From: a virus
Length of the DNA: 35,313 nucleotides
IMG/VR virus record: IMGVR_UViG_3300009155_000129
Location: 1-35,313 of that record
Reading direction: 5' to 3' (one strand)
The notes beneath the pieces are model-generated. The model ran no database searches, was not told the origin of the DNA, and worked only from the letters and a program-made list of their open reading frames with translations. Numbering within the stretch: position 1 is the stretch's first letter; every line of letters starts with the position of its first letter. Positions 1 to 32,838 of this stretch are shown piece after piece. The translations under genes and the position numbers were made by a program.

Positions 1-185
1 AACATTTCATGGCTCAGTCGGTGCGCCATCACATGAGGGTTTTTGCGTGAGCATCCACCGGGACCGATTACACCGTAGCCCTGACCATTTTCTGCGCCCG
101 TCCATAGCCAGCACCCAGAGTTCGGTTCTGGGCTGACTTGTTCCCAGAACCTCACTTCAACTGGCGTGCGATTGTAGTTCGCCAT
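1..185 (-). CDS. HNH endonuclease, N-terminal part (gene continues past window start)
   Basis: This is the first 61 codons of an HNH nuclease, a predicted metal-dependent DNA endonuclease. The ATG at 185-183 overlaps the ERF stop codon in a TAATG arrangement, so it is probably translationally coupled to the gene upstream. The peptide shows the N-terminal hallmarks of a large phage/homing HNH family: an FWEQV segment, GCWLWTGA, GYGVIG and AHRLSHE. It runs out of the window in frame with two bases left over. The fragment at 35046..35313 on the same strand begins with the missing DHLCRNPSCVNPDHL HNH core, and joining the two window ends keeps the reading frame. I therefore treat both as one gene of a circular genome. 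The family assignment is strong; the exact sequence at the seam cannot be seen here. Confidence 0.8.
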   Translation of the reverse strand, partial: MANYNRTPVEVRFWEQVSPEPNSGCWLWTGAENGQGYGVIGPGGCSRKNPHVMAHRLSHEM

Positions 186-829
186 TACGCCGCCACCGAT
201 GCCTTGAGTTCAGACAGTCGGTCATTGTACTCAACGCGGAGTTCATCCAGAAAATCAGGCGGCAGCGCGTCAATGTCAGTGACGTTGGACTGATACCAAG
301 ACTTGAGCGCATTGACGCTGGCGGCGTTGCGGATGGCCTTCACCATCGTATCGTACGGCCCGCGCATTGCGGCTTTCGATGCGCCGGGTGTTCCGTTGGC
401 CGCAACCATCACAGGCGGCTCAAACTTCACATGCTGGTCGTTGTCTGGATCGTCTCCAGTTTCGAGAACGAACGTCTTGAGAAGCGCATACTTAAAGGCG
501 TAGCTAATTGCCTTTCCTGGCCCCTTGTCTTGGCTGTCGATGCCATAACCAAGGCTATCCACGATAATCTGGTCGGAGCGGTCATCAATGTTGACGAACA
601 CAACCTTGCACTGAAGCTGTGTGCGGTTGCCTTCCTGCGTCACCCTGTAGTCGGTGGGATAGCAAACAATACCGTGCTTCACCAGCAATGGGTTGATGGC
701 TTTGGCAACCTTGTCGTGGCTCACGTAGCTGTACTGCATCCCTGACTTCTTCTCCTTCTGGAGGTAGTCGAGTTCTTTCATCACAGCATTGATGCGCTGG
801 AGAATGTTAAGCGTAGATGCTGCGGTCAT
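185..829 (-). CDS. erf: ERF-family single-strand annealing protein (recombinase)
   Basis: This 214-residue protein belongs to the ERF superfamily, recombinases that bind single-stranded DNA and anneal complementary strands; P22 Erf circularises phage DNA after infection. The N-terminal half carries the family pattern: INAVMKELDYLQKEKKSG, YSYVSHDKVAKAINPLL, a beta-rich middle, then the conserved KAISYAFKYALLKTFVLETGDDPD stretch at about residues 107-130. The C-terminal third is low in conservation and likely a linker plus a protein-interaction tail. The start ATG at 829 lies inside the end of the upstream gene (23-base overlap), and the stop overlaps the HNH start, so it is part of a tightly coupled leftward operon with nuclease, SSB-like, excisionase and integrase genes. 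Confidence 0.9.
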   Translation of the reverse strand: MTAASTLNILQRINAVMKELDYLQKEKKSGMQYSYVSHDKVAKAINPLLVKHGIVCYPTDYRVTQEGNRTQLQCKVVFVNIDDRSDQIIVDSLGYGIDSQDKGPGKAISYAFKYALLKTFVLETGDDPDNDQHVKFEPPVMVAANGTPGASKAAMRGPYDTMVKAIRNAASVNALKSWYQSNVTDIDALPPDFLDELRVEYNDRLSELKASVAA

Positions 830-30240: not shown

Positions 30241-30430
30241 GGTCCAGAGCGTTACCCTGCCGCCACCGCCCGCTTGCATGGCTCCTGTGGCGGTTCCCGG
30301 CGTCAAGGTAGGTGATGACGCCCGCGTGGCTCTTGCCCGTTCACGGGCTGCGCTTGCCTCGGCAAACGGCAATCTGGACTGCTCCCGCCAGTGGTATAGC
30401 GGCGTCAGGAAGAATTACGCGCGTCAGTAG
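30143..30430 (+). CDS. o-spanin lipoprotein (Rz1-like), starts inside the i-spanin gene
   Basis: A 95-residue outer-membrane lipoprotein. ATG 30143 lies 98 bases before the i-spanin stop in the +1 frame, the embedded arrangement known from Rz/Rz1. The signal peptide ends in a lipobox ALTGC with Cys26 as the lipid-modified residue. The mature part is Pro-rich near its start (VTLPPPPACMAPVAVPG) and helical at its end. Its stop (30428-30430) meets the stop of the opposing micro-ORF, with no bases between the two operons. Confidence 0.85.
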   Translation: MKKNYSPSLLPRALLMTGIFVALTGCTASGSSKVQSVTLPPPPACMAPVAVPGVKVGDDARVALARSRAALASANGNLDCSRQWYSGVRKNYARQ

Positions 30431-30456
30431 TATTTCAGGTTGCGGTCCAGGTTCAT
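30424..30456 (-). CDS. Terminal 10-codon micro-ORF of the attP-side cassette
   Basis: ATG 30456 overlaps the stop of the gene before it (ATGA) and is preceded by AAAGGTGG. The frame encodes MNLDRNLKYY and stops at 30424-30426, colliding with the o-spanin stop on the other strand. It may be a truncated gene remnant rather than a working peptide. Confidence 0.3.
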   Translation of the reverse strand: MNLDRNLKYY

Positions 30457-30641
30457 GTGCCACCTTTCAGATCGCGGATGGCGGCGGCAGCTTCTCGCAG
30501 CAGCAGCGTCATGGTCATCGGCGCGTGCTGGTCCTCGAACTGCTGGGCCAGACGGATCAGCCGCGCGGCGATCCCGCTCGGGTCATTTCCCGGCAGCGGT
30601 GCTGTGTGTGTGCCGGGAGTGTCCCGCTCGGTAACGCTCAT
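30453..30641 (-). CDS. Cassette micro-ORF ending in the LKGG tail, 62 residues
   Basis: Starts at ATG 30641, overlapping the upstream stop (ATGA). The N-terminal half is polar and Pro-rich (SVTERDTPGTHTAPLPGNDPSG), the second half helical (IAARLIRLAQQFEDQHAPMTMTLLLREAAAAIRDLKGGT). Its last 12 residues resemble those of the next gene upstream (EAAAIRALKGGA), because both ends encode the AAAGGTGG ribosome binding site of the following gene. The function is unknown. Confidence 0.6.
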   Translation of the reverse strand: MSVTERDTPGTHTAPLPGNDPSGIAARLIRLAQQFEDQHAPMTMTLLLREAAAAIRDLKGGT

Positions 30642-30841
30642 GCGCCACCTTTCAGCGCGCGGATGGCTGCGGCCTCTGTCCCGTGTCTGCATGTTTCCGC
30701 CACCCTCGCCGCCTCCTCCAGCACCTCGGCGCGGATGATGGAGATGGCGGCGGCCATTCGTGCGTTTGGCGTATCCGGTATCCCAACGCGAAAATATGCG
30801 GAGTTGGCTTTCTCCACCAGCGCGGCGCGGTCAGCGGTCAT
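30638..30841 (-). CDS. Cassette micro-ORF with LKGG tail, 67 residues
   Basis: ATG 30841 overlaps the upstream gene by 11 bases. The protein is helical (MTADRAALVEKANSAYFRVGIPDTPNARMAAAISIIRAEVLEEAARVAETC...) and ends EAAAIRALKGGA. The pattern of Ala-rich helices with Arg/Glu resembles small accessory phage proteins of the Ead/Ea22 kind, although I would not assign it firmly. Coupled at both ends. Confidence 0.6.
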   Translation of the reverse strand: MTADRAALVEKANSAYFRVGIPDTPNARMAAAISIIRAEVLEEAARVAETCRHGTEAAAIRALKGGA

Positions 30842-31034
30842 TGGACGGCTCCTGTGTGAGTGCGGTGCGGGCTATGGCCGCAACCTTAATAGCTTTTGAT
30901 ACTTCGCTGTAGGATTTAATGTCTGCAATCTCCCGCAGCGCCGCCCGCAGACGTTTGATCTCGGCTTTCATATCATTGAACGTGGTCTCAGGAACTGCAA
31001 CGCACTGGATCATTGGGGTCATAGCGTCAGTCAT
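30831..31034 (-). CDS. Cassette micro-ORF with coiled coil, 67 residues
   Basis: Starts at ATG 31034, with an eight-base overlap (ATGACTGA) to the gene before it. It begins MTDAMTPMIQCVAVPETTFNDM and continues with the coiled coil KAEIKRLRAALREIADIK, then a helix ending VAAIARTALTQEPSNDR. The ALTQE tail contains CAGGAG, the ribosome binding site of the next gene. The function is unknown. Confidence 0.62.
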   Translation of the reverse strand: MTDAMTPMIQCVAVPETTFNDMKAEIKRLRAALREIADIKSYSEVSKAIKVAAIARTALTQEPSNDR

Positions 31035-31269
31035 CTTTCTTCTCCTCTGCGAGTGCTGCGGTGGCTTCGTCCAGTGCCTTCTTGTGGTCACTCGCAAATG
31101 TAGTTTCGTCACCGCCGTATTCATACCAGTCTTCCGCCATCCAGAGCACGCCGCCCAGCGCCGCCCTCAGCCGTTCAATTTCGGCGGCGGCACGGCCAGC
31201 CAGTTCGTGCAGATACTCGTCGCCGCAGTTATCGGAGCAATGCCGTAGCCTCTCTACAATGTCAGTCAT
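31027..31269 (-). CDS. Cassette micro-ORF (MTDIVERLR-type), 80 residues
   Basis: Starts at ATG 31269 (ATGACTGA overlap). The opening MTDIVERLRHCSDNCGDEYLHELAGRAAAEIERLRAALGG is a very common phage small-protein pattern: an N-terminal helix, a short Cys-containing part and a coiled coil with EIERLRAAL. The C-terminus (DEATAALAEEKKDD) repeats the tail type of its neighbours. Function unknown in all phages I know of. Confidence 0.65.
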   Translation of the reverse strand: MTDIVERLRHCSDNCGDEYLHELAGRAAAEIERLRAALGGVLWMAEDWYEYGGDETTFASDHKKALDEATAALAEEKKDD

Positions 31270-31807
31270 TAGGCTTCTCCTGTGCGAGTGCGGCGTGGGC
31301 GACATCCATCACCGCCATCAATTTTTCATTCAGCGCAATGGCGTGGTCATAGCCATTCGCGGGGTTTATCGTGCGACGGCCCGTGTATCGCTGCTGGTCT
31401 ATCCACGCCAGCGCCGCCTCAAGCTGTTCGATGCGGGCATTCTTCGCGGCCAGACAGTCGTACCTTTCGGGCGTCAAAAACGTGCCGAACAGGCTATGAA
31501 TTACCCCTCCCAACGCATTTTCCTTGTTCAGCCTCTCCACCTCTGCGGTGAGGCGCTTGAACTCTGTGGTAAAACTGCCGTTGTCCTGCCGCGCGCTGTT
31601 GAGATCGGTATAGGCGTCCGTCAGTTCGCTGTTTAGCCTCTCCACCTCGGCCTGCAGCCGTTCGTTCTCGGCTTCAAGCAATGACCGATCAGGCAAGACA
31701 CTGGCGGGTGCAATGTCTGGGAAGACGGACTTCCATGTGTCTAGTTCTTCCGTCAGCCTCTCCACCTCGGCGGTGAGGCGGGTGATCTCGGATTCGTGGT
31801 CACTCAT
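31262..31807 (-). CDS. Coiled-coil protein of the cassette, 181 residues
   Basis: The largest cassette product. It is made of several heptad repeats of the type TAEVERLTEELD, QAEVERLNSELTD and TAEVERLNKENA, spread over residues about 5-105, which form a long coiled coil. A second part (EQLEAALAWIDQQRYTGRRTINPANGYDHAIALNEKL) follows. It ends DVAHAALAQEKPND, the shared tail. ATG 31807 overlaps the upstream stop by eight bases (ATGAGTGA). The repeats in DNA (cctctccacctcggcggtgag type on the plus strand) point to internal duplication. Function unknown. Confidence 0.68.
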   Translation of the reverse strand: MSDHESEITRLTAEVERLTEELDTWKSVFPDIAPASVLPDRSLLEAENERLQAEVERLNSELTDAYTDLNSARQDNGSFTTEFKRLTAEVERLNKENALGGVIHSLFGTFLTPERYDCLAAKNARIEQLEAALAWIDQQRYTGRRTINPANGYDHAIALNEKLMAVMDVAHAALAQEKPND

Positions 31808-32015
31808 GGATTATTTCCTTTGCCAACTGCTGCGCCATCATCAGGAGACTGCGAATGCCGCGCTGTCGCATGGGGTCAGCGTTCAACGTGCACCTGCACC
31901 CGCCGTTTGTGTGCATTCCTGTTCGCTGGATAACAACACAGCCTCCGTCACCGCAACCGCCCACGGACCGCGCTAAGTCCAGATATTTTTCCGCCAACTG
32001 TTTCCGGTCGCTCAT
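31800..32015 (-). CDS. Cys-rich cassette protein, 71 residues
   Basis: Starts at ATG 32015 directly after CAGGAG in the end of the 17-codon ORF. It holds five Cys residues in a compact central part (GGCGDGGCVVIQRTGMHTNGGCRCTLNADP) between two helices, which suggests a small metal-binding or disulfide knuckle, although the spacing fits no standard zinc finger. The helical end (RSLLMMAQQLAKEIIHE) carries AAGGA as ribosome binding site for the next gene. Function unknown. Confidence 0.65.
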   Translation of the reverse strand: MSDRKQLAEKYLDLARSVGGCGDGGCVVIQRTGMHTNGGCRCTLNADPMRQRGIRSLLMMAQQLAKEIIHE

Positions 32016-32065
32016 CCCTGATTCTCCTGTGTAAGTGCTGCGCGGGCGACATCCATGTCACTCAT
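32012..32065 (-). CDS. 17-codon leader-type micro-ORF
   Basis: ATG 32065 is preceded by a perfect GAAGGAGG. The peptide MSDMDVARAALTQENQG joins the MSD start of the cassette proteins directly to their shared DVA-AAL-QE tail, so it looks like a paralogue with its middle deleted. Its end supplies CAGGAG and an ATGA overlap for the 71-residue gene. Confidence 0.45.
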   Translation of the reverse strand: MSDMDVARAALTQENQG

Positions 32066-32102
32066 CACGCGCCTCCTTCGGGATTTGTGCTGGGTCAATC
32101 AT
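32058..32102 (-). CDS. 14-codon leader ORF, first in the cassette
   Basis: ATG 32102 follows AGGAGG with ideal spacing. The frame (MIDPAQIPKEARDE) contains the ribosome binding site of the next micro-ORF and ends eight bases inside it. This may be an upstream coupling or attenuation peptide rather than a functional product. Confidence 0.4.
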   Translation of the reverse strand: MIDPAQIPKEARDE

Positions 32103-32184
32103 TAGGGCCTCCTGATACGGATTGGATACAGAAACGTGGGACAGGTTAAGAACGCCGGGAGAACAGAAACGCAACGTGCTGCAT

Positions 32185-32214: not shown

Positions 32215-32228
32215 TTCTGGGGGGATAG

Positions 32229-32261
32229 GGGTCGCTGGTTCGAATCCAGTCGCTCCGACCA
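32229..32261 (+). other. attP: attP core: 3' end of a tRNA-Pro gene
   Basis: The sequence holds a T-arm (GCTGG-TTCGAAT-CCAGT, 32234-32250), the acceptor 3' strand CGCTCCG (32251-32257), discriminator A and CCA (32259-32261). No D-arm, anticodon arm or 5' acceptor is nearby, so it is only a 3' tRNA fragment. A G72 pairing with C1 plus A73 is typical of bacterial tRNA-Pro. Integration here would restore the host tRNA. Integrase is nearby on the minus strand. Confidence 0.8.
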
Positions 32262-32301
32262 CTTTCTCCCGAAATGATACTGAAATGATACGGAAACCCG
32301 G

Positions 32302-32838
32302 TCATTTCGCCCACTCTAGATAAGTCGCGCCAAGGTGGCCGCGTGACCAAACCACCCAGCAGAAGTCTATTGATCCGCCACCCCGGATTGATTCGCCCTG
32401 TTCGCGGAGCATTTCACCGGGCGGCATGGACGGCCTGCGGCTGAACATAATAACCCGTTCTGTGGCGTTGTCTGAAAACAGGCCATGACGGCGCTGTGAT
32501 GCCAAGAACTTCACTTGGACAAGGGCCGCAACCCTGTATTTGGCAATGGTCAGCGCGTGGTCAATTATGGCCTGCGCCGTGCCATACGGCGGGTTAGTCA
32601 CGATATTATCGTAAGCGGCGAAGTCCCTCATAAAGTCGCGCTGTGGGTAGCCATAGCCCCTGTCGATCAGGTCGGCACCCGTCCCGCCCATAACGCGCGG
32701 AATCGTTCCCATGCCGCAGCACGGGTCATGGATCGCCCCGACAAACGGAACCCGGTGCCGCAGTGCTTCCACGCACCATTCCGGCTCGACATACCAATCA
32801 TTTTCATCACGGATATATTCAGACTTCCGCTCGCCCAT
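32302..32838 (-). CDS. DNA methyltransferase (NPPY, adenine/N4-cytosine class)
   Basis: A 178-residue S-adenosylmethionine-dependent methyltransferase. Motif I is DPCCGMGTIPRVM (residues 38-50) and the catalytic motif IV is TNPPYG (81-86). It lacks a recognisable target-recognition domain and is shorter than restriction-modification enzymes, like many phage orphan methyltransferases. The ATG overlaps the integrase stop (TAATG), and it is the last gene of the leftward operon before attP. No restriction partner is near, so a role in anti-restriction or gene control is likely but inferred. Confidence 0.82.
   Translation of the reverse strand: MGERKSEYIRDENDWYVEPEWCVEALRHRVPFVGAIHDPCCGMGTIPRVMGGTGADLIDRGYGYPQRDFMRDFAAYDNIVTNPPYGTAQAIIDHALTIAKYRVAALVQVKFLASQRRHGLFSDNATERVIMFSRRPSMPPGEMLREQGESIRGGGSIDFCWVVWSRGHLGATYLEWAK

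Follow-up and report, generated by a model that had tools for sequence, protein, structure and literature searches.

The small-gene cassette beside attP in the temperate phage studied here is likely to be an exchangeable array of micro-genes, in which homeologous recombination takes place at anchors of 20-57 bp, plausibly by the phage's own Erf protein. The window, i.e. the whole stretch of DNA analysed, is a virus record of 35,313 bases and belongs to an uncultivated temperate phage that encodes a P22-like portal, a Terminase_3 large subunit, a tyrosine-type integrase and an Erf-family annealing protein. The cassette lies with attP on one side and the lysis genes on the other, and is read towards the lysis genes. 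All nine minus-strand ORFs that the earlier note had placed at 30424-32102 were found again (9/9; Table 1). The overlaps between consecutive ORFs, from ORF1 to ORF9, are 8, 4, 8, 8, 8, 11, 4 and 4 nt (range 4-11 nt).

Table 1. Positions of the cassette ORFs and of related features in the window.
Feature	Position	Strand	Description
ERF-superfamily single-strand annealing protein	185..829	(-)	candidate recombinase for the exchanges; PF04404, E=5e-22
ORF9	30424..30456	(-)	MNLDRNLKYY, 10 aa; family D shell (MNLD...SLRYY in L115, SMKYY in L093)
ORF8	30453..30641	(-)	62 aa; block AQQFEDQHAP common to other phages; tail AAAIRDLKGG
ORF7	30638..30841	(-)	67 aa, family B; head MTADRAALVEK, core IRAEVLEEAA, tail AAAIRALKGG
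ORF7 internal core anchor	30707..30736	(-)	
ORF6	30831..31034	(-)	67 aa; core and tail of family A, head unrelated
ORF6 internal core anchor	30936..30965	(-)	
ORF5	31027..31269	(-)	80 aa, family A; head MTDIVERLR, core EIERLRAAL, tail AALAEE
ORF5 internal core anchor	31156..31190	(-)	
ORF4	31262..31807	(-)	181 aa, family A; several ERL heptad blocks
ORF3	31800..32015	(-)	71 aa, Cys-rich; not of the variable-middle type
ORF2	32012..32065	(-)	MSDMDVARAALTQENQG, 17 aa; family A shell: MSD and C-terminal tail
ORF1	32058..32102	(-)	MIDPAQIPKEARDE, 14 aa; family C shell: head MI.PAQIP and tail.EARDE, without middle
Leader	32103..32182	(-)	from promoter-like site to ORF1; ends in SD AGGAGG; alignable in siblings
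attP core	32217..32269	(-)	3' end of tRNA-Pro(GGG); match to end of Sinorhizobium phage phiLM21 record; tRNA-Pro ggg in genomes of the searched class

IMG/VR contigs contain many cassettes built in the same way. Genes of family A follow the pattern M[ST]DIVERLR ... EIERLRAAL ... AALAQE, those of family B MTADRRAALVEK ... IRAEVLEEAA ... AAAIRALK, those of family C MINPAQIPDEVVEAA ... AAWPG ... LILPLPQEA, and those of family D MNLDRIAQDA ... SLRYY. In alignments of the families, the ends and the cores are conserved, with gapped middles between them. The gene order C, A, B, D was found repeatedly, in several contigs. Judged by these patterns, ORFs 1, 2 and 9 are reduced forms ("shells") of families C, A and D, consisting of a head and a tail with no middle. 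The number of 24-mer matches to about 90 relative loci peaks at joints, heads and internal cores and falls to 0-1 in the middles, a profile that is partly ascertained, with inflated head and core peaks, since the relatives were collected via peptides of cassette genes. The set of five phages and the pair of contigs L006 and L008 described below are less exposed to this ascertainment.

Outside these contigs, a tblastn search of 50,697 cultured-phage records found nothing that matched families A, B or C. The family A profile gave zero matches in 385 genomes of one class, and the same profile matched 7/7 virus-record controls. The exact joint pattern GCACTCRCACAGGAG N2-12 ATGA was matched 79 times in bacterial genomes; these matches were judged to be at chance level, their contexts being unrelated genes. 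In viral contigs, the same pattern picked up real joints mixed with chance matches.

ORF3, which has the Cys-rich stretch GGCGDGGC...NGGCRC, has a relative in L036 with 66% identity across nearly the full length, unlike its neighbouring ORFs. The C-terminal 51 aa of ORF4 are common to a gene of L050 (85% DNA identity), and a shorter C-terminal stretch is 74% identical to a gene of L100 with a family C head. ORF4 also contains several ERL/EVERL heptad blocks. L006/L008 show gain or loss of blocks of this kind between direct repeats, and ORF4 may have grown in this manner. In L113 (3387-3695, reverse strand; the contig is shared with L095), a gene that begins with MDEDRAALAQESPMSDIVERLR resembles a head-B/tail-A shell joined in frame to the following gene, and the SD is retained within it.

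An SD-like motif precedes every start in the cassette, and for each next gene the SD sits within the preceding gene. The earlier note had read the recurring protein ends as translated ribosome binding sites. This proved right for QE/EE, which are CAGGAG/GAGGAG, and for KGG, which is AAAGGTGG; AAL and AAIRAL, by contrast, do not derive from an SD. The start codon of the next gene supplies the final one or two residues of the tail (aATGACTGA giving ND), and the DNA in common at the joints extends about 20-25 nt upstream of the SD, beyond the SD itself. In each of the families A, B and C, distances from SD to start are clustered at 7 nt. The MSD/MTD starts, also pointed out previously, were seen in five of the nine ORFs and are partly a product of the joint, because an 8-nt overlap (ATGASTGA) forces MS or MT followed by D or E. 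These facts suggest that the like endings of many small phage proteins are partly the ribosome binding site of the next gene.

The integrase and attP region is common to five phages, namely the window, L115, L093, L198 and L199, and their cassettes could be compared at the same site. After the leader, the window carries a C shell, an A shell, ORF3, three family A genes, a B gene, ORF8 and a D shell, and L115 carries full C, A, B and D genes. In L093 the leader is joined straight to a tail-A joint (GCACAGGAGAAGCCCA-ATG), which is followed by B and D. The order is A, A, C and later B in L199, and a 20-aa remnant, other genes, C, A-type genes and B in L198. For the family B gene of the five phages, with borders set by hand from motif patterns after the sequences had been viewed, the mean pairwise identities of head, core and tail were 0.69, 0.78 and 0.76 (0.50, 0.52 and 0.49 after shuffling), whereas middles 1 and 2 gave 0.46 and 0.44 against shuffled values of 0.45 and 0.40. 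The expectation that the equivalent attP-side region of related phages has conserved joints and different middles was therefore confirmed in five same-site IMG/VR cassettes. The initial expectation that the joints alone are conserved was overturned: in a first fourfold-site comparison, the inner segments scored 0.92 and the tails 0.82, and the 24-mer profile and the fourfold test given below agreed with this. Conservation of the internal cores equals that of the joints, so that whole genes are not the only units of exchange. The proposal of whole-gene swapping accordingly holds as to the conserved joints and has to be widened to exchange within genes, with ORF3 as an exception.

It could be argued that the genes are ordinary fast-evolving paralogous families, in which selection keeps helical ends and cores while the linkers drift by substitution and indel, so that exchange is unneeded. 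Each family does have a recognisable protein consensus, and the anchors fall on predicted helix parts in two models of modest confidence. The synonymous positions, however, point the other way. For pairs with dissimilar upstream sequence, the fourfold-site identity of the tails was 0.77 (A) and 0.75 (B), with a wide bootstrap range over loci of 0.63-0.92, and that of the cores was 0.92 (A) and 0.94 (B); codon usage predicts 0.34 (A) and 0.33 (B). The test rests on families A and B, no pair of family C falling under the similarity cut-off. The anchors thus show modest neutral divergence, whereas the middles are at the shuffled level; had the middles merely drifted, they should remain largely alignable. 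Agreement of the tails despite different upstream sequence favours exchange over drift.

A near-identical pair of contigs, L006 and L008, is also hard to reconcile with drift. They are 97-99% identical across the compared stretches, and their family C genes are identical at 141/141 nt up to AWPG, have unrelated middles of 51 and 42 nt, respectively, with similarity at chance (z=0.6), and are then identical again at 39/39 nt. The L006 sequence was found again in another sample (L007, 100% identical), and the L008 form in one contig. A 63-nt block, with copies of the direct repeat GAACGGCTGCGGG on either side, distinguishes the neighbouring family A genes of the pair. In two further comparisons (L015 with L037, L004 with L005), one half of the gene is 89-98% shared and the other half is at or near chance. 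Head-tail chimeras were found in L033 (head A, tail B) and in L100 (head C, tail A), the tail of the latter being ascertained, since that contig was found by the exact joint pattern. We regard drift of paralogs as improbable. A different objection is that the joints are conserved for an RNA or DNA function of their own (ribosome binding, reinitiation or a recombinase site), with exchange between phages being incidental. The 7-nt spacing and the overlapping stop and start codons in the joints would fit such a function; the extension of the conserved DNA well past the SD would not, and internal cores free of any SD are at least as conserved. Ordinary SD joints in the same contigs, moreover, are mostly not common to unrelated genes. 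This was seen by clustering the 32 nt ahead of the start codon at overlapping joints. The thresholds of the analysis as a whole (a tail identity of 72%, alignment scores of 30 and of 60, a word length of 20) were each a single choice and were not varied. In the ordinary clusters, the upstream genes were the same in 100% of pairs and the downstream genes in 100% of pairs for most, three clusters giving 17-58%. The bodies in the tail clusters (A, B, C and the AALSGDK type), a few of which are the same joints recounted at an alternative in-frame or overlapping start, were similar in 4-53% of pairs upstream and in 0-36% downstream. A role of the joints alone is therefore very improbable. It is hardly credible that the cassette is an ordinary compact phage operon, with three micro-ORFs that are no genes and with similarities due to noise: although the 4-nt overlap is the commonest class among all joints scanned, the heads and tails of the micro-ORFs match full-length genes of sibling phages, and the tail clusters are unlike ordinary joints.

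From the sequences we infer that recombination, rather than another cause, lies behind the pattern of anchors and middles. For 116 gene pairs, a 20-mer is in common at the joint and none in the middle; the longest matches are 20-57 bp. In full-length A, B and C genes, the head, at least one internal core and the tail are DNA-conserved anchors with hypervariable segments between them, and a tail together with the next head anchor forms the gene joint, in which the next gene's SD and the overlapping stop and start codons lie. In an exchangeable array, such short anchors would be the sites of homeologous recombination when phages co-infect or when a phage meets a prophage, and a segment or a whole gene would thereby be replaced, added or deleted. 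Exchanges would be kept in frame, and a gene downstream of an exchanged joint would stay translatable, because its SD and overlapping start lie in the anchor; the genes would presumably be translationally coupled. Loss of a middle would leave a head-plus-tail shell, as may have happened in ORFs 1, 2 and 9. The Erf annealing protein would be a plausible agent. Homologies that are short and diverged can be recombined by phage annealing proteins: a requirement of 23-27 bp is reported for Red-beta, and on diverged DNA the Erf of phage D3 is about as efficient in recombination as Red (PMC3945230). Many of the perfect anchor matches are 20-24 bp, at or below the length reported for efficient pairing.

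A further-reaching version is that the joints have been selected as universal adaptors. A shared pool of micro-genes and segments would then plug into standard, translation-preserving junctions by annealing recombination, and the shells would be vacant slots in which docking sites, and with them translation further downstream, are preserved for a future insert. We consider this version possible, if rather doubtful.

As to expression and function, the earlier note had given the cassette its own TATAAT promoter, probable expression in lysogens and possible host-modifying or defence roles. A -10 TATAAT is present at 32188-32183 with a -35 of 4/6; promoter-like sites, however, occur at the chance level (one found, 0.7 expected), and two of the four sibling phages lack TATAAT (TTTACG/TTTACA in L115/L199). 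The promoter was thus not borne out, and with a site at chance and not conserved, expression in lysogens gained no support. The same is true of host modification and defence: PADLOC returned weak coiled-coil matches for ORF4 and one marginal match for ORF6, and Pfam, PHROG and NCBIfam gave no function for the cassette products. Two predicted structures, both all-helical, were of modest confidence (pLDDT 77 and 75), and fold comparison returned no useful match. Our guess is that the products are accessory, probably small alpha-helical proteins.

Two observations concern the surroundings of the cassette. The tRNA-Pro match of the attP core only puts attP in a tRNA that is conserved widely. A methyltransferase-like ORF of 178 aa at 32302-32838, overlapping the integrase stop, covers just positions 200-378 of the 458 of PHROG 799 and may be a shortened version.

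Whether phage mosaics arise via homologous recombination at short boundary sequences or via illegitimate recombination and selection is an open question. Lambdoid boundary sequences were reportedly the subject of the ninR work of Clark et al. in 2001. The middles do not look like the target of a diversity-generating retroelement, which would be a repeat of constant length with adenine-specific substitutions: they vary over 27-60 and 66-102 nt and are unrelated. In the lambdoid model, as cited in PMC3233612 and PMC3029335, short conserved DNA at gene boundaries provides proposed homologous-recombination sites for gene exchange; according to both papers, many or most mosaic boundaries show no evident boundary sequence. 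The cassette likewise has short conserved boundary DNA flanked by non-homologous sequence in related phages. Unlike in the lambdoid model, a few joint types recur along one operon, and the boundary DNA is coding and includes the next SD and start. Nor are the breakpoints in the cassettes restricted to boundaries, since they also occur at internal cores (AWPG, ERLR, IRADVLEEAA).

Other systems resemble parts of the array. The adjacent genes 67 and 68 of mycobacteriophage Island3 have 18 C-terminal residues and about 50 bp of DNA in common, which PMC3029335 explains by recombination adding or removing one gene. Island3 is a single case, whereas the cassettes have several tail classes, many contigs and shells. 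The ea22/Ead genes of lambdoid phages encode accessory coiled-coil proteins. Their N part is conserved to some extent, their C part varies, and they end in the same tripeptide, K/RGE, the significance of which was called unknown (PMC7093339). They are like the cassette genes in combining a variable part with a common protein ending; in the cassette, however, the ends in common reach about 30-40 nt and the joints chain many genes. Among the proteins of the window and its relatives that were compared with Pfam, none matched the Ea22/Ead family. Lambda ea22 itself (L211, NC_001416 29300-31100) ends in ATC AAA GGA GAG TGA (IKGE). Such a K/RGE ending can be read as an SD that is not immediately followed by a start codon, and may be the remnant of a translated ribosome binding site. 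In phage protein fragment shuffling (PMC10684548), segments recombine between phage proteins with core functions tied to host interaction; the cassette consists of tiny genes whose exchange points also carry translation signals. The array makes the question of mosaic origin testable, offering many boundaries with anchors of 20-57 bp, a near-identical pair with one segment replaced and a candidate recombinase. The array is best taken as a variant of boundary-sequence mosaicism.
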